DNA of 23,103 nucleotides, taken from assembly GCA_028565635.1 (NCBI GenBank), contig JAOXYB010080832.1:1-23103 (forward strand), given 5' to 3'. Both the position numbers and the translations under genes were made by a program. This DNA is from Phoronis ovalis. Its lineage: Eukaryota > Phoronida > Phoronidae. Below the pieces are notes generated by a model that ran no database searches, had not been told where the DNA came from, and worked only from the letters and a program-made list of their open reading frames with translations. This document shows positions 1 through 17,698 of this stretch, one piece after another; positions within the stretch are counted from its first letter, which is position 1; each line of letters opens with the position of its first letter.

Positions 1-1807
1 CTGCAAAGGTATCGCTGATTTTTGAATATTTTGAAGATCAAACGTGCGGGTGTTTTGTAAAATAGTGCATAGTTTCATCAAAGCAATTTCGAAATTAAAT
101 TAATTTCAAGTCACTGATGCATTTAAGGTATGTCAGGCTAGGGTTTCAATATTTTGAAAACATGTACGTGGGACATTAATTTCCTATCTATTCATTTGGG
201 TGGATAATAGAACCTATCCTTGGATGTCACGATATAGATCCAATTATAGAACTAAACTGTTGAGGTGACTCAATATGTTTATGATTATATTGCACCAATA
301 ACTTTTGGCGGAAAATAACTACCAGTTTTTTGATAATATGCATAACACATTGTTATTAGTCTTGCAACCAGTTTTTCTTTTTATGTGAAGTAATGTTATG
401 TTACTTTCTTATATTAGGAATGATATACTTGTTAACGATTTTACTTGTATATACATTGTATGTTGCTGTTTCTGTGTGATTAATGTTATGTACTGTGTTA
501 CTTTGTAACCCTTCTTTTTATAGCTGTGAATTGCAAGAATTCCTTTACGGTTTTGGTATTTATGAGGATAAATATGCATAACAATTATGTGAACATACTG
601 CATGGCAATTATATAGCCCAACACGCTGCAGCCGTATGAAAGTCATACGTGTACGTATATATATTAAGCCATTGTCACAAGTAGTGATTTGGATAACTGT
701 TACCTAATACAAATATCAAAAATCACCGTAATGGCATTCTTTCGCTAGCTATATAGTTAAAGTTCTTGTTACTGACACCGCGTTACTTGACAGGGCTTTA
801 TGAGAATAAACTGGAATTGAATTGTTAACCTTGCGTTATCGGTTATCCAACTGAAGACCATTTTAATCCCAGTGTTAAGCAAGATGTGCTGTGAATGTTT
901 AAATGAATGGAATGCTGGCATAAAATTAAAAATGCTTTACGAAATGAAGCACCTAGGATTTGTTTTGATTCAATACTGTATAATTTAACTTATAATAATC
1001 TGTGATTTTGATTTTTGCAAAAAAAATTATTATTAATTTAAATGTTTTTATTTCCCATCATTAGTCGGATGATCCGTCTCAAATTGAAGTATTTCCTCAT
1101 ATATGCCAGAAATAACTATACAAACTTGAAACCACACACATCACGACACAAACCTAACTACAGCAATAAATGTCCTGTCATACGTCATAAAGAATGTTGT
1201 TGTGATGAACGGTCCATCGCTTGTTTTCGATGATACAAAAATAATGCGGTTTATTAGGAACCAGGAGTAAGTATTCCATGTAGGAGTAGGTGTTCCATGT
1301 ACCTTAATTCCTTGTCCCGAATTCACTTCATTTTTTAAGACTAACAACGTGTCTTTCGGAGAGGGTCGTGATTACGAGCTGTGTGCATGGAAGGCATGTG
1401 AAGTGTGAGAACGAAAATCGTAGTCCGAAACTAAAGAAGTGAAGTGTGGTGAAGAAGTATGGTACATGTACGTACACTTTACATGTAAATACATGTTACA
1501 TGTATGTCAAATCAAACACAATATCTATATTCTGACTACATGAGGTTGATATCAAAACAAAATATGTCGAGGGCATTAATAAAATATACAATGAAAATTC
1601 TGGCCAAAAAAGGCCTCTAGAGAATAATTAATTTAAATTTTGTAGACATTCAATTTGTAATAAGGAGAAAAGAAATACGCATCACATTCTATTCGAATCT
1701 AATCCTTTGCTCCAAATGCTACACTTTATTTTCCTATCAAAACGTGTAACATTTCTAGCCTTAAACTCAAAAACGGAATGAGGATTTTAAATTTTTTAAT
1801 TTGAATA
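1..1807. other. AT-rich intergenic stretch, no gene seen
   Basis: I find no convincing exon here: open frames are short, low in complexity and lack splice context. Two small structures stand out. A 19-bp unit with the core GGAGTA..TTCCATGTA is repeated twice in tandem at 1263-1300. A cluster of overlapping ACATGT palindromes lies around 1460-1507. The right end leads into the block conserved upstream of both peptide genes. Distal regulatory sequence for copy A could lie here but cannot be shown. Confidence 0.6.
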
Positions 1808-1915
1808 TTCCATGGACCAGATTTGTAACTCTTAGCTACGTCACAAAAAATCCATAAAGGTGTAAATGAAATTACCAAAATTATTCTTAACTTTATTTGT
1901 CGGCTTGCAAGCAAG
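1808..1915 (+). promoter_or_regulatory. Conserved upstream block and probable untranslated exon 1 of copy A
   Basis: This block aligns with 9696-9802 upstream of copy B with preserved spacing of about 105 bp from a CATGG motif to the exon end. Shared pieces are CATGG.CC near 1811, CTTAGCTA at 1831-1838 and CGGCTTGCAAGCAAG ending at 1915. Copy A continues GTGTGT after that point, a plausible 5' splice donor. The first coding exon begins just after a pyrimidine-rich acceptor (AG at 2428-2429) only five bases before the ATG, so a spliced, untranslated first exon is needed. I infer that this block contains the core promoter and exon 1, with an intron of about 514 bp. No clear TATA box is conserved between the copies. 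Confidence 0.5.
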
Positions 1916-2434: not shown

Positions 2435-5400
2435 ATGAAGTTAACGTACATCCTCCTATTGCTGGTAGTGGTAGCCCTTCTGGTAAATGATGGAGATGCA
2501 TGGCGCAGACGTCGACGTCGACGTGGATGGGGAAGGATACGTATTCGACGCTTTCGTATACCACGTATTCGGCTTCCACGTATTCGTATTCCACGTATTC
2601 GTCTTCCACGTATTCGTCTTCCACGTATTCGACTTCCTAGAATTCGTCTACCTCGCCTGGGGTAAGGGCAAACATTTAAATTTACGTTTGTAATGTAGAT
2701 ATCCACACCGTCGGCTCTTACTGCAACTTTCAGTAATGTGTAAACCCAGATTTGCAATAAGGTGTATGTAACTGTGTGTTTACGAGATACGGGTAAATCA
2801 GTATACCTGTTTTCGGGTTGGAACCACTGCAAAGTTACTTTATTGCTTCCTTTCACATATCCCTTCGCGCTGAGGGAATACAACTACAAAACTGACTGAT
2901 TTATAAATATAGATGTAACCGGTTGTGCGAGTTAATGTATAGATATATTATATTACAAGTTTAAGAGAGCCAATACATACAAAAACCAGGCTAGATTTGC
3001 AAAAGCAGTTCCTCATAAACCAAACCAAACAGATGTAAGTTAAGATTCTAAAGTTATGCGCAGAATCGCCACTGCTGACGAAATTCTGAACAAAATTAAC
3101 TAGGGCAATAAAGATTTGTCACAATGATATTTAGTTTATTGAAAATATTTCAGAGGTTTGTGCAAAAACGTGGGGTGTGGATTACTTTGCAAAAAGGTGC
3201 CATCTTGGGTCAAGAATTGCTGTACTACTGCCTGTCCTTACATCTGTTCTAAAATACCTATAGTTGGAAAACGAGGATTTAACGAGCAGGTAATTAAGAT
3301 ACTCATGCGAAGGGTTGAATATGTTTAGAAATACAGCAAGAAGTAACTATAAACATATTAACGGGGGCGATCCTGTTTTTGTGTAAATAATTGGCGATAT
3401 TTGCAGATACATATCATCGTCTATGGGGAACTAAAGACAAAAAGTGAAACCGAACTACAGAACAAAAAATGAAGCTTTACGAACAGATTGTTTTGTGAAG
3501 GGGGTTCAAGTTATTAGTCGTCGTTTGAATATTAGTTTATGATTGCAGTTGCCTAACTTTGATACTTTGTGATTGCAGTTGCCTAACTTTGATACTTTAT
3601 TTTGAAATTGAATTACTCGTTTTCGTACATTTCAGATCGAGAACATGAGGAATCTTCAAGCAATGCCTTCTGACTTCAGTGTTTACGATAATAACAACGA
3701 CCAGAAGATTTCCAGGGAAGAGTTTGCTAACGCGTTACGGTCTTCTATTCTTCATTCAAGAGAAGCCTTTGATCACGGCGATGGAAATAGTAAGTTTGTA
3801 CTGAAATAAGAACTATCTCAATGCTTTAGTTGATTTGTGAAAACTTATCTTGGTTGAAACATGTTTCTGTTTTTGAAACTATTCTCCATCACTGTGTTTT
3901 GTCTATACAATTTATGGCAAATATTTTTTTGGTTTTGCGCCTGTAAAACTTAAAAAACAATTCCAGGCGGACAGAGATTTTATTTGCGTCATTGCAAAGT
4001 ACAAACTTGTTTTTTTTCCCATAAGAATGACGAAACTAATTAATAAATAATACATGCTGCTGATGATTTATTTATAAAAAGTGGTGTAAACTATATTGTT
4101 AAATTTTCTAAAAAAATCTGATATTTATCTTTGCACAATTAATTACACGAAATTAATTATTGGTGTATTTATTTCTAAGAATAGGAAATTTTACAAGTTT
4201 ATTTACTACAGAATTGTTTTTGGCAAAAGTATTTTATTGATTGCGCGAAGTATTGTTGACACTACGTGTTAATTTTAGTTTTTTTAATGCCAACATCTTA
4301 TACTTTTTGGTTGAAACGAATAAAATCTTGAGGCATATGCGCTCTTTTAATATCCCAAATTTGAATTCAGTTCTATTTCCCATTGGAATACTGTTCATGG
4401 ATTTGCAAGACTGCAGCAGCGTATCAGAGGTCGGAAGCCCATATCAAACAGAGATAACATGTATTGCTCTATTTTATACGAAAGAACTTTATAATGGAGA
4501 TAGATGGGATTTCCAACGATGTGTTGTTTATGCCGCTTAATATATTGAATTGCCAATTTTTGCAGATGACGAATATATGGATATGGATGAATTTGACCAC
4601 GCCCCTTTTTACCGTGACGAGAGCGATCTAGAAGCTTTGAGGGCTAGAGCTCTTTCGGATGATGACATTGACGGTATGTAAGGAACGCTGCGGAGCATAT
4701 GAGCGATGCGAACAAATAAGCAGTAATCTGATTTCTAACTTTCTTTTGAAGCGTTCAGAAGTTTACACATGTACTTTAATTAATCTCAGCAGCTTCTTTC
4801 CCAGGTAACTTAGCTTCTTGAGGGCATGATATCTAATAGTGCATAGCTCACATAACAATGTATGCTATTTATAAACACTTTAATTTTATTTCGTATATAT
4901 TTATCATTTTGAATTCAATAAGACACTTGAGCCATAACAATTCATAGCAGCAACGATAACCTAGTATGTGGTCACGCTCTCCCACGCATTATTATTGCAA
5001 TGTCATTATACATTAAATTATTTATATATTTATCTACACCTATGAGCAGAAAACAATCATTAAGCCCTTGACATTTCAGTCAATGTATGCAGTTATATAA
5101 AGATTCTGATACTTCATACATTTTTTTTAATTCCATATATTTATAGTTATTATCACCCATTTTTAACGTAATAACTTAATACAATCATAAGTTAAAGTTT
5201 CACCAAAAATGGGACAGGTGTTAGTCTAATGTGTAATTAAGTACACAACAAACACTATTAGTTGAACCTTTACAAACATTGCAAAGAAAGATTACATAAA
5301 TAAAATTTAAGATAAAAAAATGACTGTCTATAATGACTTATGATACCATTAATTTGTCTTGTAATACACTTTGATAGTACTATACAACAGACATCACCAG

Positions 5401-6752
5401 AGGTCGACAGGTTCGATGCACAGCACATGTAGCTGATTTTTTAAAATAACTGCACAATTGCGTCTAAAACATGTTTAACAAATAAAGCGAGTTACAATTG
5501 CTCGACTATGCATATGTCTGCAAAGTATAATAATTTGGATAACGACGAGTACAGACTATTTGCAAGCTCTTGGTAGAGCCTCGTCCTAAACGGCATTTCT
5601 ATAAAAGAGTACTAGTTACCTTAAAATTATGTTCATATACCTTTCAATTACATAATAATAGGTTAATTCATTTTTTATAGACGATGACGATCTCAATGAT
5701 GATGATGATGATGATGATGATGAAGCACTTAAACGAATACTGGAAGGTAGGTATATTTATTGTTATAAAATAAAGTTGTCTTGTCTTAGAATACCTTCCT
5801 TCTGGCATAAAACTGTATATCTAAATTTTATTTTTTATAAAATCGAATATAATTTACTTTAGCAAAAACGCAACATGCCATCCTTTGCGTCAGATACGGC
5901 TTCACCACTGCCCAGCGGTTCGTCACAGGCATTCAATTGTTAAGCGATAATCGGACCAAGTAGCAGTTATGTTTGAAAGTCTTTCAGGCCCTGAAATACT
6001 AGTAGTAGATTCCTACAGTAGTTTACGAGTTACTCAATGATCAAGCAATTTCATATGTGCATTAATTGCTTACCAACTATATATTTGCTGTATTGTAGAT
6101 GATGACCTTGACCTTGACGATAATGATATGTCCAACGATGAACTTGAAAGAGCTTTGGAAGACATAGGTATGCGTAACGCATGAACGAACATGAAATATA
6201 ATCCAACAAAAACCAAATATCTAATTTCCGTAACAGTTATGTTTGAAAGTCTTTCAGACCCTGAACTATTAGCAGCAGATTCCTAGGCACCGGTTAATCA
6301 CAATGATCAAGTCATTTCATTTGTGCATTAATTGCTCATCAACAATGTATTTGCTGATTGTAGATGATGACCTTGATGATAGTGATATGTCTAAGAAAAT
6401 GCTTTCAAGACATGGGTACGCGTAACATATGAACGAATACGAACTGTAATCCTGTGATCTTCTAGAAAATGCTTCTGATAATGTATAATTTATTTTTTCG
6501 AATAATTTCGGAAATAACATATAATTTTCTAAAATTTTGTTCAGCATGAAAACGAGGCCGCTGCTACTGAAACTTTTTTTAAGCAAATAGTCGGTAACTA
6601 GTCCTGACAACCCCCCACTCTTTATAGTATCACTCATGATATGCAGTAGGTTACAAGCAGTCCATAACGTTCTTCCAGCCATTTCTGTATAGTATCATTG
6701 CTGTGTGCTTGTAGATAATAACGACGATGACGAAGATGAGGATAAGAAGTGA
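2435..6752 (+). CDS. Copy A: secreted Arg-rich/Cys-rich amidated peptide precursor with EF-hand and poly-Asp propeptide
   Basis: Seven coding exons are assembled by splice site and phase: 2430-2661 (ATG at 2435), 3154-3289, 3636-3789, 4566-4673, 5681-5746, 6099-6167 and 6715-6752 (TGA). Together they give 265 aa. Residues 1-22 are a hydrophobic signal peptide (MKLTY..., likely cut after GDA). Residues 23-33 are Trp/Arg/Gly; 34-73 are eight pentads, mostly RIRLP. Cysteines lie at 79, 84, 88, 98, 99, 103 and 107. Gly-Lys-Arg at 114-116 is a classic amidation plus dibasic cleavage site, so the predicted mature peptide is about 23-113, with roughly 25 Arg, 5 Lys and no Asp or Glu. EF-hand loops are at 139-150 and 170-181. 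The rest is an Asp-rich tail ending DEDKK. Role (inferred): a membrane-active or antimicrobial secreted peptide with an acidic, calcium-binding pro-region. Internal Arg pairs could also be cleaved. The family is not recognised. Arasin- and penaeidin-like precursors share the Arg/Pro plus Cys idea but not this Cys pattern or tail. Confidence 0.88.
2534..2653 (+). repeat. Coding 15-bp minisatellite encoding eight Arg-rich pentads (copy A)
   Basis: Eight 15-bp units encode RIRIR, RFRIP, RIRLP, RIRIP, then four RIRLP. The commonest unit is close to CGTATTCGTCTTCCA. Several middle units differ at one or two bases, which fits unit gain and loss by slippage or unequal exchange. The register is preserved because 15 is a multiple of 3. 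Copy B has nine units of different composition. The repeat also opens long antisense frames, which are shadows. Confidence 0.92.
3541..3599. repeat. Two tandem copies of a 30-bp repeat in intron 3 of copy A
   Basis: The unit starts GATTGCAGTTGCCTAACTTT and continues GATACTTTGT. It occurs at 3541-3570 and again from 3571, with the last base or two changed. It ends about 35 bp before the splice acceptor of the EF-hand exon. Each unit contains an internal TTGCAG that looks like a weak acceptor. I did not find the array in copy B. Confidence 0.9.
5964..6430 (+). repeat. Tandem segmental duplication of an exon and its upstream intron in copy A
   Basis: The segment from about 5964 to 6190 (intron end, exon 7 and the start of the next intron) is repeated at about 6234-6430. 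Matching landmarks are CAGTTATGTTTGAAAGTCTT at 5964 and 6234, AGATTCCTA, TGTGCATTAATTGCT just before the acceptor, GATGATGACCTTGA at the exon start, and GCGTAAC..ATGAACGAA after the donor. The first unit carries the working exon (6099-6167). The second carries a damaged one (6364-6415). Copy B does not have the duplication, so it probably arose in copy A after the genes split. Confidence 0.88.
6364..6415 (+). pseudogene. Decayed duplicate of acidic exon 7, frame-disrupting if spliced in
   Basis: The acceptor (TGTAG, 6359-6363) and donor (GTACGC at 6416) look usable, and the first residues read DDDLDDSDMS like exon 7. However, the exon is 52 nt, while the functional neighbour is 69 nt. All other internal tail exons preserve phase 1 to phase 1; this one leaves phase 2. 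Spliced to the last exon it would read Gly and then stop, ending the protein in SKKMLSRHG and losing the acidic DEDKK tail. Either it is skipped as a pseudo-exon or it makes a shorter isoform. Transcript data would decide. Confidence 0.65.
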
Positions 6753-6938
6753 AAAGCGCAAAACCGAATTCGATAAACACAGTCGATGTATCGTGGTCAT
6801 GAAAGCCGGATAAAGCAATATCTCTACCAAAAGGATTGTTTACAAGCTTCATAGTTTTGGCACAATTCTAATTTTTATTTTTATACCGTAGAATATGCAA
6901 AGTACCCATTTCACATTTATGTACATTTCAATTAGAGT

Positions 6939-6944
6939 AATAAA
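6939..6944 (+). terminator. Poly(A) signal of copy A
   Basis: AATAAA lies 187 bp after the TGA stop, within an otherwise gene-free, AT-rich 3' region. It is the first perfect match after the stop that I see, so it is the likely end of the copy A transcript. Confidence 0.6.
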
Positions 6945-9695
6945 TAGCAGTCTTCTAATGTTTCTAGCAACAGTTTTGTTTATCTATTCGGTTGTCTCAT
7001 TTGTATAATATGACATAAATTTAGCTGTCTCGTTCTGTGAATCTGTTGACTGTATGTATGTTTTTTAAATCACTAAAACGTCATAGCGCCTTAAGAACAT
7101 CGTGTTGTAGAGAGGATATTTGTATAAAAGTGCCTCCCTCTTTACTGTAAGAAACTACTTCTGTATTTGGATTTGTTTGATGTAGAGTTGTTCTTCTTAC
7201 CGAATGATTGGCAACTACTGGAGCTGTGTATACAATCTCTTCCAAATATATAGCTGGCTGAAATGTACACACCGTTGCTTTGTTACATGCGTAGTGTTAC
7301 CTTTATTTACCTTACTTATATATAACTATTCTTGAATATAAAATAGTAAGACTTAGATCATGAAATTGTATATCATGATCTGCTTTTATTTCTCCCAGAA
7401 ATGGACCCCTCATATAGATTACAGTTGGTAAATAAAAAATGTTACTGTCTTAGTTAAACGCTAGGAGAATATTAATGTCTGGTTTAAACGCTAGGAACCG
7501 CCACTGAGAAGGCATTTAACGTACACATGCGCAGCGGATACGGAACGTACAACTTTGACAGTAAATGACAGCGTAAGTGATCCACCGGACACGGCTGCAC
7601 CATCGATAGAGGTGCGCGCCTAAACGTATTGTTTTGGTCAGAAAACTCCTTTCGTTAATAGTATATAGAAGATTCTTTTTGTTAATTAATATCATAACCC
7701 CTCTATTACTTTTTTATATAGATACAAATATTACTTTTTTACTAATCTTTAAAAGTATTTATCAAATATCAAATTTTTAACCCCTACTGTTATTCTAGCA
7801 CTTAATTCGATTACATAAATTTAAGGACACTCCAGCGGTTTAACAAAGCTCTAAAAGAAAAAAGCAAACTAATTTTTAAAATCAAATCACATTTCCATGA
7901 ATTTTCTACAAATATTTCAGAGACTATATGACTTTATTTACTTTATATGTTCAGCAACAAACTGTGAAGTATCCGGGAGTTTCCAACCACGGAACACAAA
8001 ATAATTAATAAGGTGAGAATTCGATCCCCGAACCATGGTGCGGCACATATATACATATACAGTCACATTGAAAGAGTCACCGGGCCATGTCCCTATTATA
8101 AAGACACTTCTGTGTCGAAAGGAGACCTAAATAATAGCCACCGGAAAATTGGACGCAGCGGCTGTGTCATACAAAGTACAATGATATAACATCAGGCCTA
8201 CCTAACCGGCATAGACTCAAACCGTCAATCCGCACTCGCGCCCCTGTTTCCTACCATTCGAACTCCTTTTCCGGCTTTCGCATCGAAATTCCTGCTATTC
8301 GATCCGTAAACTCGCACAAGTAGCCAGGAACTCGTACAGATTTCCGGAGATCCAGACCTATTGTTCGACAAGTGTTCGAGTCTCTGGAAATCTGTACCAG
8401 TTCCTAGCAACATGTGCGGGTCTACGGAAGCGACGGTAGAAGTAACAAGAATTTTGGTGAGAAACTCGGAAAAAGGGTTCGATTGGTAGGAAACAGGTGC
8501 GCGAGTGCAGATTGACGGTTAGAGTCTACGCTGGTTATAATTAGATAGGCCTGAACATGGTATAAAAGAAAGTATTCGATTCTGCGCGATTTTTGAGATG
8601 AATAGTGTCTGTTGGGGGCTATTTTTAACTGTACTAGATAAAGTTTAATAAACTTTATTTAAGAGAGTTTTTTTATATTTCTGAGTGTTTTGCAAACCAG
8701 GATTGGTGCATTTAAGGAATGTCACAATTTAAAAACAAAACTATATACATTTTTTCTTGTCACGATTTATCCATTTGGTAGTAATCAAAAGTACAAAAAT
8801 AACCCATTTTTCAATATATTTTTGAAAGAGAATTATTAAAGTGACATAAATTTATGAAATTTATGTATGCCCTCATCTAGGTCTTGTCGGACAAGACAAT
8901 AGACCTGAAACCATACTATGACGACACACAAATATTATCAAGGGTAAAACGTTTTTTTGGCATAATGTATGAAAACGGTAATTGTTTATTTAGCTAATGG
9001 GCTATTTATGCCAAAAAGGTGGCACTGCTTTCTAAGCGTAACGTCGTGCGACGGAATGTCTTCAATATATCACGACTTATAATTACGTATTGAAATTGTG
9101 GCGATATCATGTGATATGTTGTAAAACGCAAAGAAATGAATTAAAACTTCAAACTGCCGGTGCACGCGTGGCAAATGATCGTGTATGTCTACATTATCTT
9201 AACAGGCCCCAAACTTACATTTAATTCTGCCCAAAATAGATATTAGTAGGAAAAAAAGTATAATACAGAACGTAAAAATTGAAGTATTTCTATAATGCCC
9301 TTGACAGCAATAAAATGTAAAGTTCTGGATTTTGTTATAAACGTTATTGTTTTCTCTCTGGCAAACTGCCCATATCACGTATTAGTAAAAACCATATCAA
9401 TACGGGCAGTATGCGCCAGCTGAACCGCACTAGAAGTAAGAATTCCAGATGAATTTCAGAATCAGTATAGCCTGACTATGTACAAAATATGAAATGAAAT
9501 AATATGAGTTCATTTACTTTGCACAGGTAGACTTCATAGACTGACGTAGAGGCTCGTATAGAACACGACGTTTCACTGCAATATCTTTTTCTTATTCAAA
9601 AGCATCACAGATGCTTGATAAAGCGCTTACTCTTAAAAGTTAACGCCACGGATTTTATAACTCAAACAAATCAATGTGGATTTAAGATTGGATTT
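6945..9695. other. Intergenic region between the two tandem copies
   Basis: No gene is supported. The notable content is a 13-bp direct repeat (TTAAACGCTAGGA) near 7455 and 7482, a large foldback element at 8185-8564, and a less AT-rich patch around 7960-8150 that looks like worn repeat DNA. That patch includes AATTCGATCCCC near 8018, a weak resemblance to a Pol III B box. Open frames in this stretch are short or lie inside the palindrome. Confidence 0.6.
8185..8564. mobile_element. About 380-bp foldback (palindromic) MITE-like element
   Basis: The left half matches the reverse complement of the right half almost from end to end. Paired landmarks are AGGCCTA (8194-8200) with TAGGCCT; AGACTCAAACCGTCAATC with GATTGACGGTTAGAGTCT; CACTCGCGC with GCGCGAGTG; CTGTTTCCTACCA with TGGTAGGAAACAG; and near the centre CAGATTTCC with GGAAATCTG. 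The midpoint is near 8374 with a loop of only about 30 nt or less. No transposase frame is present, so it is non-autonomous. A target-site duplication is not obvious. Its better GC content sets it apart from the flanks. Confidence 0.85.
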
Positions 9696-9802
9696 TTCAT
9701 GGGCCGAAATTTATAGCCCTTAGCTATGCCGCATCAATTAATAAAACAACTTAGTAAAACATTTCATGACTTTATTTACCGGCTTGCAAGCAAGTAATTA
9801 AG
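9696..9802 (+). promoter_or_regulatory. Conserved upstream block and probable untranslated exon 1 of copy B
   Basis: This is the counterpart of 1808-1915: CATGGGCC near 9699, CTTAGCTA at 9719-9726 and CGGCTTGCAAGCAAG ending at 9794 keep the same order and spacing. Two donors are possible. GTAATT at 9794 falls where copy A splices. AAG|GTACGT at 9803 is the stronger consensus. The coding exon starts after the acceptor at 10159-10160, giving an intron of roughly 360 bp. TTTATAG at 9710 may be a TATA-like element but is not preserved in copy A. Confidence 0.5.
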
Positions 9803-10165
9803 GTACGTTTTTTATTTGTAAAGGTAACATTGATAGTCGGATACTATAGACTCACTTTGTTATAATTGTTCAAGAAGCATAATATGATCGTGCATTAAAA
9901 GCACATGATATTTATAACAGTTATATAAAAGACATTGAAATTCTCGAAAAATTGTTCTGTAGATTTTGTTGTCGGATTTTCTATACTAAGCATTTTCTTT
10001 ATCATACTGTTGAAAACAGTACAATTTTTTGGTAGATATAATTGTATTTACTATGAAATTGGGTTTTAGCTTTCACCGGTACCTAGCATATTTCTTTTTC
10101 AAATATTTCCAATCTTTATAATTATTTTCAGCATATCATTTGTCGCTGTTTTTTTTTCAGGTAAA

Positions 10166-13100
10166 ATGAAGTTAGTGTGCGTCCTCCTTTTGCTGACAGT
10201 GGTCATGCTCCTGGTAAACGAAGGAGATACTTGGGGCAGACGAAGATGGTTTCGTACCCCACGCTTTCGTTTCCGACGCTTTCGTTTCCCACGTATTCGT
10301 TTTCGACGCTTTCGTTTCCCACGTATTCGTTTTCGACGCTTTCGCATCCCTAGAATTCGTCTTCCTCGTATTCGCCTGGGGTAAGTTTAAACTGTCCTGT
10401 ATAATTTAGCCTACACACGCTCACACTGTCAGCTTGTACGACTGCAAATGTAATAATACTTACACCCAGATTTGTGCTAATGGATGAAAATTTTAAAAAT
10501 GTAACTATAACTGATAATTCAAACAAAAAAGGTGAGATAGACTTAACTACTTGTGTATGTTCAGTACTGTTGCCGTTCTGAAAAAAACTTGAACATGGGC
10601 AATAGAGGTATGTAGTAATTGTACTGAGTTGATTCAAAATTTCAGAGGTTTGTGTAAAGGCGTGGGATGCGGATTACTTTGCAAAAGAGTACCACATTGG
10701 GTCAAGAATTGCTGCAGGACTGCCTGCCCTTACATCTGTTCTAAAATACCTGTAATTGGAAAGCGAGGATTTAGCGAACAGGTATGATACTTATTCGAAG
10801 GGTTAGATTAATCTAGATTTTCTGTAAGAAATAATTCAACAATATTCACGGAATTTCAATTTAAAAATGACACACGTTATTTGTAATTTTTTGTACTTTA
10901 AATATGAAGGTATAAATATTAGCAAAAAAATAAAACGTTGTTTTAATTAAAAAAATGGCATCTAAATTACTACATTTACACAACTACGGAACATAAAATG
11001 TGCACTTAACGGCAAAGAATTCGACGTCATCTCTCAAGAAAGTGCAAAATAGAATGTTTTGAATGTCAGCTTAGCTATCTGTCTCGTAGTTGCCCAAGTC
11101 TTAATTAAAATTAATTATTGACACAAAAATATGACTTGTGTGTAGACTCCAAAAATTGTTTGCATACATTTCAGATCGAGAACATGAGAAATCTACAAGC
11201 AATGCCTTCTGACTTCAGTGTTTACGATAATAACAATGATCAGAAGATATCCAGGGAAGAGTTTGCTAACGCGTTACGGTCTTCTATTCTGCATTCCAGA
11301 GAAGCCTTTGATCACGGCGATGGAAATAGTAAGGCTCAAGTTCAGGCTTACAATTTTTTTAGTTGAATCATTTTTGATCAAACTTACACATTCAATTCGT
11401 AAAAGCTGACGTACACAGTGGATGTATATGTTTTACCATGTGTATTTGCTTGCAATGTGCTTCCTATCTGAATAACATGACATAACTCTACATGTTGCAA
11501 TTACTGTACAGTAGATAGGTATCTATCGCACTAACGTATACATGAAACAAATCCGCGATTACTGATTATATTGGTATTACTGTTAAAGGAAAGGGATGAC
11601 TTGTTTTATTAAAAAATAACAAATTGAAATAACGAATGGGGTTAAATTACAGCTGAGTTAGTTTTTCAATATGAAATGATTTTCTTTATTTGTGAAACGG
11701 GGTTAGGAGTACTCCAAAGCTTTTTCAGGATGTGGATAACTTTGCACGCAATTAATTGATTTCACGGGTCTTTCTTAAAGTTTGCTTATTAGATAGTCAA
11801 TTCATTTATCAAAATAAAGAATTTTGCAAGAAGAGATAGAGCAGAAATCTTTAGCACTGAAGTTTATGGTCTAATGCCAAATTATTACAGAGGATGACTT
11901 TATGGACATGGACGAATTTGATCACGCCCCTTTCTACCGCGATGAGAACGATCTAGAAGATATGCGGGCTAGAATTCTTTCAGATGATGAATTCGATGGT
12001 ACGTAATTTTTCCATAAAAGTGGCTCAAATATATAGTTGTAATACAACTATAGCAGCGATTTATTATATTTAAAAATTTAATATAATTCATTAGTATTTC
12101 TACGTAACATATTGTATATATTAATCGAATGATAACTTTCCGCAATTACAACGTGGACCTCGCTATTTTGATGATGATGTGCAACAATTACAGATCTAGG
12201 CTCTAAAAAAAAGTGATAAACCTATACATCATTCTGCAAAAAAATGTGCAAAAAATGTAAGGTGAGACATACCAAATACATAAAATCTAAAAATCGGTCA
12301 ATTGTGACCACAACCGCAATTGCATTCCATGTTGTGAGAGTCAGTGAAGCATGGAAGCTTTTGTATTTATTAATCAATGTCTTCTGATCTACTGTGATTA
12401 CTGTGTACAGACATTTTCCGGGTACTGTTTTTCTCCTTCAATTATCTGAATTTCTACTATATATATATATATATCCTTCCCTATTACTTAAAGGAGACTT
12501 GCTGTTCTTTTTTCTAGATGACGACCTTGATGATGACGATGGTGAGGAAGAACTACAACGAATGCTTGAAGGTAACAATCTGTCTATGTATCAAATCACT
12601 GGAAACAATTAATGTTGTACCCTCGGGGAGAGCACTAATATATATTAAGAATTATAATAATTAAGAATATGAAGAATACGACCATGTTCCTCCAAAGCGG
12701 TCATTTTTTATGCAGAAATCTTTAGAAATGGGTCCACTTTAGAAAATTACCTACGAGTTTACTTTTCATAGGAAAATCCCGATTTGGAGTGACTTTCGAA
12801 AATCAGTCTCTCTTTTTGAGCAAAAAACCTACCACTAGTCAGAACCTTTTTTCGAGTGATATACCTAAAAATAGGCTTATTTCTGAATCAAAATCCCCGG
12901 CAAAAATCTCTAGAAATATGTGGATATTTTGAGGCACATCTCCGTCTAAATGATATACCAGTGCACATCGAGATTATGCTTAAATCATGTTGAAATTACA
13001 AAAATGCTCTGTAGCATTCTTTTAAATGTTACAGAATATGCACTCTACAGTATATACCAGTTTGTGTCATTGTGTCTTGTCTCGGACATTTGTACCCTTA

Positions 13101-15568
13101 TTTTAAGAATACATTTACTAATGTTAAAATAGCAATTGTTAGTGCAAAGCGTAAAATTAGTTTTAAAATAGGTTGATCTTGGCCAAGCAGCTACAAAGTA
13201 TTTTACGTCTAATGCTGCCGTAATACTGGGCTTACCCAATTGTATTTCAATCTACCTGTAATATGTAAACCGGTATGATAAGCCTGGAATATATATATTT
13301 GTTTCTGAGGTTCTAACTAACTTTGCTATATGATTTTAATTTTCTTAGTTGCTCATTGGGTGGCACTTTGTTACGATATTTTGATTTTATACTTAGAATC
13401 CTGTATGAGAAGAGTGTGTACATAGATGCATATTTCTAAAACTGTAGTAGGGAAACTAGACGGTAAAATGCAAAAATGTGATTTATAAGTGAAATAAAAT
13501 AAAACATAAAAGGTCCAAAGATTTCAGTATAATGTAGCAATGTGTAAATGTAGGATTTGTTCATTGGCTCATTAACCTTGTCAAAACAAAATGATAAAAA
13601 AGATCGATCGTAGTTTTACTTTTCTAACGAAAACAGAGGATTTTGAGGATAGGTCGAGAAGAAATACGAAAGACTGGAAAACAACCGTGGGTGGTCATGA
13701 CATACTTTTGATTTATCCAGTGTAGTTTATTTTTTTGAACATGCATGCAATTAAAAGTCCATCCAACTCTACTACAACAGTAGAAAACAATGTCTATTTG
13801 TTTGAAGAATTTAACTTATTTCATGAGGACCAGCCACAACTTTCACTTGCATAATTTTTTTTTCAAATATAATATACGACTTCTTTACCCATTACAGCTG
13901 TAATTAATAACAATTATCATTTTATCGCTAGGTACCGCTACCATGGCATAAGCCATTCACTTACATGCATCTTAAAAATATTTTCCAGAAAGAATTATCG
14001 AAATTGTTCAATCCATTTTGAAGTTATAGACATTTGTGTTGGTGTCTCTGGAGGTTATACTATTATAACCTTTATTACCCATAATGCAAAGTGATGATGA
14101 CATAAGAGGTGAACAAGGTTTTCATGTAACCCGGCATATAGGAAAAATATATTTTTTAATTGATATTCACCCATAACAGCACCAAAATGCAGTTTTTTTT
14201 AAAATATACCTTATACTATACATCGTACTTTTATAAAAGTTATATTTCAATAGTAAATCACCACCTAATAAATGAAATATAAATGATTTTACAGCACGTT
14301 ACTATACAAATGCTATACCGAAGTCAGAGTACTTTGCATTATGGGCAATACAAGTTTATAAAGGCAGCTTCCATAGCCACCAACATAGAGCCTGTTATTT
14401 CAAAATGAATTTAATAATTTAGATAATTCTTGTGGGAAATTATTCTTTGAAAATGTACCTCAAGGGATGGCTTATGTTATGTTAGTGACATTTTATTAAT
14501 CTTGAAAAGATATATCAATACCCTCATATTGTGACATTATTGGTGCATAGCTCTGTCGTACAAGTATCATTTCTTTGTGCGTTGTGCAAGACAATGACAT
14601 TTTTATCCACTAATTTTTACTTATATATGCATATGGATCGTAACAGAATTAGAGCCGTGTATCCGATTTCTAATAGAAATATTTTGCCATTATTGCATAC
14701 ATCTTGTGTTTTTAGAATGCTCATATACAAATAGTTGTACTACGTAGAAGCTTACTAGATAGCATAGTCGTTAATGGTAACGCTGCATTTGTTCCGTCGA
14801 GAATTTGTGATTTTATATGCGAAATCATAAATTCTGAACAAACAAATTCATGCAATTCAATTATCATTATTGTCAAGTGAATATCTTTTTGACGAAACTT
14901 TCATTTGGCAAAAATTATCCATTCAATACGACACTGCTAGTTTAGTTTTCTTGTATGTGTAATGTCTGTATATCTGCTTCACTGCAGATGATGATGATAT
15001 GGACACAGATGATGACGATGATGCTGATGATGATAAGTCTGATGACAATGAACTTGTCAGAGCATTGGAGGAAGAAGGTACGTGTGACTTGTGACCAATA
15101 AATGCCATTATTAATAATTAAATTATGAGTTTTTTTCTCTATAGGTAAGTGACGTTATTACTAAAAATTAATGTGATTCCATTCCAACTGTTAGATCTAC
15201 ATATTTCATGAAGGTTACGGTTATTACCGCGCGCGTTACATAGCTGTTTCGCTTGTGTGAATAATACCACCACGTTTTGTTCTATATCTCTAAAGCAAAT
15301 CATCTAATTAACACCAAAATTTACAGTCGGGTATATATTTTAAATGTTGTCAACAAATTCGCCTTATAGTGAAATGGTAACAGTATCGTGACCGGCATAT
15401 CCCCATGATAATTGTTATTAAAGCCTTATGGCATAATACAGCAGAGAACATATGTCTATAGCTATTCCGTGATTTTTTTTGACAATGCATGTATTAAATG
15501 AAGTTTTGTTTATACTTATAGTCGATAGACTTCAAAACGACGATGAAAAAGACGAGGATAAAAAGTAA
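10166..15568 (+). CDS. Copy B: paralogous Arg-rich/Cys-rich amidated peptide precursor with EF-hand and poly-Asp propeptide
   Basis: Coding exons are 10161-10380 (ATG at 10166), 10646-10781, 11175-11328, 11891-11998, 12518-12571, 14988-15077 and 15522-15568 (TAA). They give 267 aa, with every intron phase the same as in copy A. Residues 1-22 are the signal peptide (MKLVCV...GDT). Residues 23-27 are WGRRR, and 28-72 are nine pentads that alternate RFRFR/RFRFP/RIRFR and finish RIRLP, RIRLG. Cysteines are at 75, 80, 84, 94, 95, 99 and 103. Gly-Lys-Arg at 110-112 predicts an amidated peptide of residues 23-109. EF-hand loops are at 135-146 and 166-177. The tail keeps the E-L-x-R-x-L-E motifs and ends DEDKK. 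Compared with copy A, the EF-hand exon is protein-identical, the cysteine exon has seven replacements, exon 6 is shorter and exon 7 longer. Intron 6 is about 2.4 kb and holds an inserted element. Function is inferred as for copy A. Confidence 0.88.
10247..10380 (+). repeat. Coding 15-bp minisatellite encoding nine Arg-rich pentads (copy B)
   Basis: The units encode WFRTP, RFRFR, RFRFP, RIRFR, RFRFP, RIRFR, RFRIP, RIRLP and RIRLG. A 30-bp higher-order unit (RFRFP-RIRFR) is repeated, seen in DNA as alternating CGCTTTCGT and CGTATTCGT. Phe replaces much of the Ile/Leu of copy A, and Arg often replaces the fifth-position Pro. The arrays have therefore been rearranged separately since the gene duplication. 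The last pentads resemble copy A most. Confidence 0.9.
12458..12474. repeat. (TA)n microsatellite in intron 5 of copy B
   Basis: A pure alternating TA run of 17 bp lies about 43 bp before the acceptor of the short acidic exon at 12518. It is simple-sequence DNA with no other visible role. Confidence 0.85.
14037..14385. mobile_element. MITE-like element of about 350 bp in intron 6 of copy B
   Basis: Terminal inverted repeats of roughly 60-65 bp begin TGTTGGTG at 14037 and end CACCAACA at 14385. The best-matched inner part is CCCATAATGCAAAGT (about 14078-14092) against ACTTTGCATTATGGG (about 14331-14345). The interior is AT-rich and has no transposase frame. Edges are estimated from arm matching; I could not identify a target-site duplication with confidence. 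It helps to explain why this intron is much longer than its counterpart in copy A. Confidence 0.72.
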
Positions 15569-15734
15569 AATGGGAAAGGAGGACAAGAAGTAAAATGCGA
15601 AATGATCAAAAGGAATTCGACAAACGCTATCAAATTGGCACAGAGACGGTTATCAAACTGCATAGTTTATAACGCAACAACAATTATTCTTTTTATACGA
15701 AATATATTCATTTTATATACTTCCCAATTAGGAA

Positions 15735-16522: not shown

Positions 16523-17698
16523 TTATTCTTTTTTCGGTGTTCGGAATTCTGAGGCACGAATTTGAGTGTCTGTACTTATGTTAACAGACGTAGTTTTAAA
16601 ACCGTCATGTACTCTACTCTCGCTCTGTGTGTGGGAATCCAATGAACCAGTTTTGCACTTGCACAACATGTGCTTTAATTCAGCTCGAAAACGCGAACCA
16701 CTAATAACATACAAATAGAAGCTAGCGCTGTGATTCAGTATCGGCAACAGAGGTATCAATGCTTTTAATATAGCCTTTAGTGTCGGATTGTTGTCATAGG
16801 TACCAATTACATAGAAAATGGAAATGCTGGAGTAGGTGGAAGTCATCAACAAAAAGAATAATGACACTGCTATCAGTAGCTGCGTGATCTGTGAACCAGC
16901 ACCTGTAGACATTTTTCGTGATGTCTTTCTGAAATTAACTGCGAACGCTTGGCCGCTTTTTCTCAAAGATATGATAATTCCAAAATTACAAGCGAAAATG
17001 ACGATTGCGGGTACGATGGAATAAACTGTTAGACGTAACCATACTTCTACATATCTGAGTACGAGTAATGTTGAATCTGGTTTGGCTAGGCCACATTTAC
17101 CATCCCCTGTTATAGACGGGTAACTCACGGTCCAAAATGTCTGTATGTTGTAACTAAATATTAAAAGTGAAGGAATCATAACGACAGCACACGCGTTTCT
17201 CTTAGAAATCCTTTTTCTCAAAGGAAATCTTATTGCAAGAAAACGATCGATAGACAACACCATTAAAATATAAGCTGATGCTAAAGTTGCGCTGCGGTAG
17301 ATGAAGTACAAACTCTTGCATAGAACATTGGCAATTTGTGTGTTTTCAATGTATTCTAAAAAGTAGACTGGAGCTGAAAATACCACAAGTAGATCCATAA
17401 TAGACATGGATGAAAAGTATATCATACTTGAACCGTTGCTGTTTTTACAGTTTCGTAAGAATAGACTGGCTGATATAAAGTTACCCAATAACCCGATTGC
17501 ACCTATAATTATTCTGAGATATTTTCCAATTTCTGTCCATAGGGTGACATCATAAGATGATTGATCGACAGTGGTAGTGTTAAAATTATCTTTTAACGTT
17601 GAAATATTCAGAACATCTAGCGACAATGTAGATTCGTTAAAAGGGTCGGCACCGCTGTGGTTGAAACTGTTTATAATCACCATCGTAGAAACACCCAT
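16523..17698 (-). CDS. Orphan rhodopsin-class (class A) peptide-type GPCR, single exon
   Basis: The 391-aa protein is intronless. It is probably a plasma-membrane receptor coupling an extracellular peptide ligand to G proteins. The N-terminus (1-58) has no clear signal peptide and four N-glycosylation sequons (Asn13, 21, 31 and 40). TM1 (about 60-81) contains LLGN with Asn73. TM2 contains Asp102. Cys127 before TM3 and Cys202 in the second extracellular loop form the expected disulfide pair. TM3 ends in Asp-Arg-Phe (151-153) instead of the usual DRY. TM5 has Pro230. In TM7 the NPxxY motif is replaced by an NHSASFY-type sequence, as in many lophotrochozoan FMRFamide-like receptors. The C-tail has CKC, possible palmitoylation. 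The start was chosen as the first Met of the frame, which leaves a normal-length N-terminus. The ligand is unknown; subfamily assignment needs a phylogeny. Confidence 0.92.
   Translation of the reverse strand: MGVSTMVIINSFNHSGADPFNESTLSLDVLNISTLKDNFNTTTVDQSSYDVTLWTEIGKYLRIIIGAIGLLGNFISASLFLRNCKNSNGSSMIYFSSMSIMDLLVVFSAPVYFLEYIENTQIANVLCKSLYFIYRSATLASAYILMVLSIDRFLAIRFPLRKRISKRNACAVVMIPSLLIFSYNIQTFWTVSYPSITGDGKCGLAKPDSTLLVLRYVEVWLRLTVYSIVPAIVIFACNFGIIISLRKSGQAFAVNFRKTSRKMSTGAGSQITQLLIAVSLFFLLMTSTYSSISIFYVIGTYDNNPTLKAILKALIPLLPILNHSASFYLYVISGSRFRAELKHMLCKCKTGSLDSHTQSESRVHDGFKTTSVNISTDTQIRASEFRTPKKE

Follow-up and report, generated by a model that had tools for sequence, protein, structure and literature searches.

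What do two neighbouring genes produce when each joins a strongly cationic sequence to a strongly acidic one carrying EF-hands? This question is raised by a tandem gene pair in contig JAOXYB010080832.1 of the Phoronis ovalis assembly GCA_028565635.1, analysed here over a stretch of 23,103 nucleotides (the window). The assembly searched comprises 77.4 Mb in 4805 contigs, among which the window is contig C4502, and it may be mixed. The two genes probably encode precursors of secreted, host-defence-type peptides and represent a variant of the layout known from mytimycin, an antifungal peptide of mussels. This reading is supported because exon order and phases are shared by the two copies, conservation is centred on the exons and opposite charges flank the tripeptide GKR, and further because the EF-hand unit is tightly constrained, the tail is kept acidic and the mussel mytimycins and myticalins share pieces of the layout. 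The layout of the precursor is already known from the mytimycin type, and the peptide itself looks new.

Both genes lie on the + strand, copy A at 2435-6752 and copy B at 10166-15568, and their models were rebuilt from splice sites. Each copy has seven coding exons with GT/AG junctions, is open from ATG to stop and shows the same entry phases (0, 2, 0, 1, 1, 1, 1). The precursor of copy A has 265 amino acids (798 nt including the stop) and that of copy B 267 (804 nt including the stop). The original prediction of two open seven-exon models with matching phases was reproduced in the rebuilt chains, and its claim that one precursor per copy joins all the parts held for a predicted secreted chain in which opposite charges flank the conserved GKR. 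Judged from the sequence, the gene pair is real and well supported.

Exon 1 (2435-2661 in copy A, 10166-10380 in copy B) encodes a predicted signal peptide and an Arg-rich array. In copy A it is defined by the open frame, the donor GTAAGG and a 15-bp tandem repeat, and in copy B by the gene model and repeat analysis. The array is 54 residues long in copy A and 50 in copy B, with 46% Arg, 13.0% and 10.0% Pro and a charge of +25 and +23, respectively. A pentad array had been predicted in both copies; RIRLP-type pentads are indeed present in copy A, but repeat analysis showed that copy B is built of 30-nt units encoding the 10-residue FRFPRIRFRR. The motif R-x-R-R occurs in the array of copy A as one RIRR in addition to a poly-Arg start, and in that of copy B as three RFRR at 10-residue spacing.

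The array continues into a Cys-rich module with no dibasic site at the junction. This module, encoded by exon 2 (3154-3289 and 10646-10781; 117 of the 136 nt are the same), spans 37 residues with the pattern C-x4-C-x3-C-x9-CC-x3-C-x3-C and a charge of +5 in copy A and +6 in copy B. With seven cysteines, one may be free or the peptide may form a dimer. The module ends at GKR, a putative amidation and dibasic signal that is identical in both copies and sits between the oppositely charged halves. Array and module together make up a putative mature region of 91 residues in copy A and 87 in copy B, with charges of +30 and +29.

The part following GKR is Cys-free and has 149 residues in copy A and 155 in copy B, of which 58 and 62 are acidic, giving charges of -45 and -46. 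Exon 3 (3636-3789 and 11175-11328) encodes EF-hand loop 1 and the start of loop 2, which is split across exons 3 and 4 and is completed in exon 4 (4566-4673, where an acidic linker follows, and 11891-11998). Loop 1 is DNNNDQKISREE in both copies, and loop 2 is DGNNDEYMDMDE in copy A and DGNKDDFMDMDE in copy B. EF-hand loops have usual coordinating positions, and Gly is common at position 6. The coordinating positions are kept here and the Gly is lacking from both loops. All the loops of both copies fit the canonical 12-residue pattern, but the pattern alone is weak evidence, as 2000 composition shuffles of the propeptide gave at least two loop patterns in 26 cases and at least one in 361. Pfam EF-hand_6 matched copy A at 27.4 bits (cut-off 25), and at a lax E of 10 two EF-hand stretches were matched in each copy. 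The part encoded by exon 4 had no Pfam match on its own, and loop 2 therefore rests on its residues. We infer from the residues that the EF loops bind calcium.

The Asp-rich tail is encoded by exon 5 (5681-5746 in copy A, 12518-12571 in copy B) and exon 6 (6099-6167 and 14988-15077), followed by exon 7 with the stop codon (6715-6752 and 15522-15568); AATAAA is found at 6939 and 15735. Exons 5 and 6 correspond only loosely between the copies, and exon 5 of copy A also matches exon 6 of copy B. A 52-nt remnant of a duplicated exon 6 is located at 6364-6415 (+) in copy A (repeat families D4-D6, D11 and D14); it was rejected as an included exon because its inclusion breaks the reading frame. In copy B, a 25-bp tandem duplication at 15554-15603 covers the final codons and the stop, so that the 3′ untranslated region contains a second GAGGAC..AAGTAA unit.

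Alignment of copy A with copy B by blastn gave 12 rows, 10 of them on coding exons, one on an upstream block and one on an AT-rich 25-nt match outside the exons. The alignment reached no more than 17 nt past the edges of six exons. Around exon 2 it continued over a further 72 and 75 columns, with an identity near 70% (52/72 and 50/75) compared to 86% within the exon. A sharp stop of conservation at all exon edges was accordingly dropped as a description. The introns differ in length between the copies, and the 50-nt flanks of the exons, aligned without gaps, are 34-56% identical.

The upstream block covers 1801-1915 (+) in copy A and 9688-9794 (+) in copy B, with 69.8% identity over 116 columns, and its score was matched by none of 100 dinucleotide shuffles. 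In copy A it ends ..CTTGCAAGCAAG directly before gt and is likely a promoter end or a non-coding 5′ exon. A pyrimidine stretch and an acceptor-like CAG are found 5 nt before the ATG in both copies. Because of this block and the elements before both ATGs, an eighth, non-coding 5′ exon is likely. An intron just before the ATG is also present in two described myticalin genes, as far as the accessible parts of the paper go (PMC5577615; the same scope applies to the other papers cited here). A 29-bp minisatellite (2306-2395, 3.1 copies, 98% matches) lies just 5′ of the ATG of copy A, and none is listed at the corresponding site of copy B.

The ratio of replacement to synonymous divergence (dN/dS) between the copies was 0.23 over the whole coding sequence (p 3e-15). 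By part, leader and array had values of 0.57 (p 0.34) and 0.45 (p 0.042), the Cys module had 0.27, and EF unit and tail had 0.09 and 0.10, the tail value being rough since dS is saturated there (2.2). The mature region as a whole had 0.37 against 0.09 for the EF unit at equal synonymous divergence (p 1.0). Replacement changes affected 32 of 194 sites in the mature region and 10 of 213 in the EF unit (p 1e-4), which is about 3.5-fold fewer per site. Exon 3 carried 7 silent changes and no replacement over 51 residues (p 6e-6). In the tail, 25 of 133 sites had replacement changes, a faster rate than in the EF unit (p 4e-5), with the acidity kept. In our reading the EF unit appears to be kept residue by residue and the tail in composition. 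If the propeptide were a charge buffer only, EF unit and tail would be expected to be equally loose; as they are not, the propeptide seems to be constrained for more than charge.

The function of such a precursor may be depicted as follows. Judging from its N-terminus, the chain would enter the secretory pathway, where the two EF-hands would bind calcium in the lumen and fold. The acidic propeptide (-45) would be held against the cationic peptide (+30), so that the precursor would be neutralised and, while it folds and is stored, would stay soluble and do no harm; the charge arithmetic (+30/+29 against -45/-46) makes such neutralisation plausible. Cleavage at GKR, with trimming and amidation, would give one chain of about 90 residues, consisting of an extended Arg-rich array and a disulfide-bonded, possibly helical seven-Cys module, which may dimerise. 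Once released, the peptide would act upon anionic targets, among which microbial membranes are the most likely.

Several observations weigh against this interpretation. The signal peptide is a prediction from an N-terminal hydrophobic leader recognised by eye in both precursors, and the gene pair is known here from a genome assembly alone. Leader and array show, taken alone, little signal of purifying selection. The EF-hand_6 score of copy B, 24.3 bits, falls just short of the cut-off. AlphaFold2 placed helices at 3-13 and 17-33 of the Cys exon (mean pLDDT 60.6, from 2 sequences), and at this low confidence the two-helix module is a hint on which no fold search could be based. At the R-x-R-R sites the array might be cleaved into short pieces by a furin-like protease. 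Finally, the propeptide is more tightly constrained than the peptide, which may also point to the acidic part as the functional product.

The last point leads to an alternative in which the precursor serves chiefly to make its EF-hand and Asp-rich part, as a secreted calcium-binding protein of a matrix or of granules (biomineral or mucus granules, for example), with the Arg/Cys part packing or anchoring it and the chain perhaps never cut. It would agree with the EF exon being the most conserved part (51/51 amino acids identical), with the net acidic charge of the chain after the leader (-13 in copy A, -15 in copy B) and with a separate secreted-looking EF-hand protein, L011, of similarly short EF spacing in the same assembly. 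Against it, the amidation and dibasic signal GKR lies between the two halves and is the same in both copies, and mussel precursors of like arrangement are peptide precursors (PMC8004829, PMC5577615); we consider this alternative unlikely. A precursor of a signalling peptide (neuropeptide- or hormone-like) or of a gland-secreted one, with no role in defence, is in our view more doubtful still. The amidation signal, the dibasic sites and the regularly spaced R-x-R-R of copy B, from which short repeats could be released, would suit it, but the array is 46% Arg and is joined to the Cys module with no dibasic site between them. Signalling ligands are typically conserved, unlike the array units, which differ between the copies (dN/dS 0.45).

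It is very improbable that two genes were misread as one, with the signal and Cys exons on one transcript and the EF-hand exons on another. The exon chain was read from the assembly only, and conservation by exon 2 extends about 75 nt into the next intron. Both copies, however, share order, strand and the phase-0 join of exons 2 and 3; exon 3 does not start with a separate leader, and no conserved block of its own was found in the interval from exon 2 to exon 3, whereas one is present upstream of exon 1.

The prediction that no named family would match the whole precursor agreed with the searches of Pfam, the protein database and PDB. The protein database holds 5.8 billion proteins with uncertain coverage of animals, so that null matches there are weak evidence of novelty. 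The whole precursor drew 2371 candidates with none at E 0.001, the EF/tail alignment gave none at E 0.001 among 8000 scored, many probably drawn by Asp-rich words, and residues 76-206 drew 51 candidates with none at E 10. In PDB the Cys module had matches at chance level only (best E 0.16), and the EF part weakly matched ordinary EF-hand proteins (best E 0.0052).

When the assembly was searched with the Cys exon and the EF exons, both copies and one weak extra match were found, L011 on contig C3072 (E 0.109; 1240-1626 and about 2807-3015). This secreted-looking EF-hand protein has 33% identity over about 45 residues; no cationic part was seen in it, unlike in the gene pair. Its EF pair is spaced by 30 residues, compared to 31 in the copies and 36 in the calmodulin-like L016. 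Loop 2 of L011 is also interrupted by an intron, at the position found in the gene pair. This was dropped as a sign of common origin because the same split, at codon 4 in phase 1, occurred in three other loci, one of them L016; the control covered 33 sources, including the window, L011 and the loci of 30 of 98 EF-hand_7 matches. The assembly contains at least 98 such matches at E up to 1, including the two of the window, and donors for such an exon are therefore plentiful.

Other features were noted in the window and the assembly. Between the two genes lies a fold-back element (8203-8537) with 95-nt arms (84% complementary) and inner arms of 48 nt at 8303-8350 and 8381-8428 (85%), perhaps a small non-autonomous mobile element. 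A single-exon gene at 16523-17698 (-) encodes a rhodopsin-family G protein-coupled receptor of about 391 amino acids (7tm_1, E 6.5e-23), the best solved relative being somatostatin receptor 2 (E 1.2e-13). Contig C1114 (L013, L014) carries a mitochondrial gene set (15,713 bp, 72.6% AT, genes on both strands) in the order cox3-atp6-nad3-nad2-cox1-cox2 / -nad5 -nad4 -nad4L -cob -nad6 -nad1; atp8 was not recognised there, by eye and after cox2 only. Mussels belong to the Amarsipobranchia. In these bivalves all mitochondrial genes are on one strand (PMC3704766), and C1114 differs from them. Its order is near that of chiton and abalone (PMC3704766, PMC5162086), but with atp6 between cox3 and nad3, and it differs from the orders described for Solemya, Nautilus and Solenogastres in the accessible text. 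Provided that C1114 and the gene pair come from one animal, this animal would be a mollusc outside the mytilids or some other lophotrochozoan. No match to bacterial 16S was found in the assembly among the 5 of 279 first-look candidates that were scored.

How do the two precursors compare with known families? An EF-hand in the propeptide of such a peptide had been thought unprecedented, a claim overturned by the anionic C-terminal extension of mytimycin (PMC8004829, PMC3210125). Mytimycin shares with the gene pair a signal peptide, a cationic Cys-rich peptide, a dibasic site, an acidic C-terminal extension with a conserved EF-hand and a multicopy state (PMC8004829, PMC3210125). In its precursor a signal peptide of 23 aa precedes a mature peptide of 54 aa that has 12 Cys, and an EF hand-motif lies in the 75-aa extension that follows (PMC8004829), although one figure legend gives the plural "EF hands" (PMC6628016). 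The counterpart here is KR followed by the -45/-46 propeptide with two EF loops. Mytilid mytimycins have 10-14 Cys, with a backbone of 10 conserved and arrays starting CC (PMC8004829), against seven in both copies here and none in the propeptide, and their gene has three exons and two introns (PMC3210125), against seven coding exons. Neither an Arg array nor a poly-Asp tail is mentioned in the accessible descriptions of mytimycin (PMC8004829), by which alone the two were compared; both are present here. The same source states the function of the EF-hand in mytimycin to be unknown and suggests that mytimycins are restricted to Mytilida. In the accessible literature on antimicrobial precursors, from which subscription papers are mostly missing, mytimycin was the only EF-hand-bearing precursor recognised.

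Myticalins and modiocalins share the signal peptide, Arg/Pro repeats, dibasic site, amidation and acidic propeptide (PMC5577615), and the GKR and -45/-46 propeptide of the gene pair correspond to their dibasic site, amidation Gly and acidic propeptide. They are defined as linear, Cys-free peptides of 23-42 residues, compared to 91/87 residues with seven Cys here, and their repeats are PRY-type triplets in place of RIRLP pentads; the term EF-hand does not occur in that paper (PMC5577615). Penaeidins, arasins and hyastatin-like peptides likewise join an extended Pro/Arg-rich N-terminal domain to a Cys-rich domain (PMC11678341, PMC4954822). The penaeidin domain has six Cys, one fewer than here, arasin 1 has two disulfides, and the accessible description of the crustacean penaeidins and arasins mentions no EF-hand propeptide (PMC11678341). 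Proline-rich antimicrobial peptides are defined by at least 25% proline, well above the 13.0%/10.0% of the arrays, and by antimicrobial action with DnaK or the ribosome as target (PMC7736402). The combination of Arg/Pro array, amidated seven-Cys module, two EF-hands and poly-Asp tail was not found described in the accessible sources. It is tempting, though doubtful, to regard the EF-hand propeptide as a calcium-dependent lock that would silence the two-domain peptide at high luminal calcium and release it on a fall in calcium or a protease cut; the gene pair and mytimycin would then either have arrived independently at calcium-gated storage of host-defence peptides or stand at opposite ends of a single old family. 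As a second, differently built cationic peptide carries an EF-hand propeptide here, maybe in another lineage, comparing the two offers a test of what the EF-hand does; should both peptides, being unrelated, have retained a propeptide that binds calcium, then calcium probably has a part in their storage or release.

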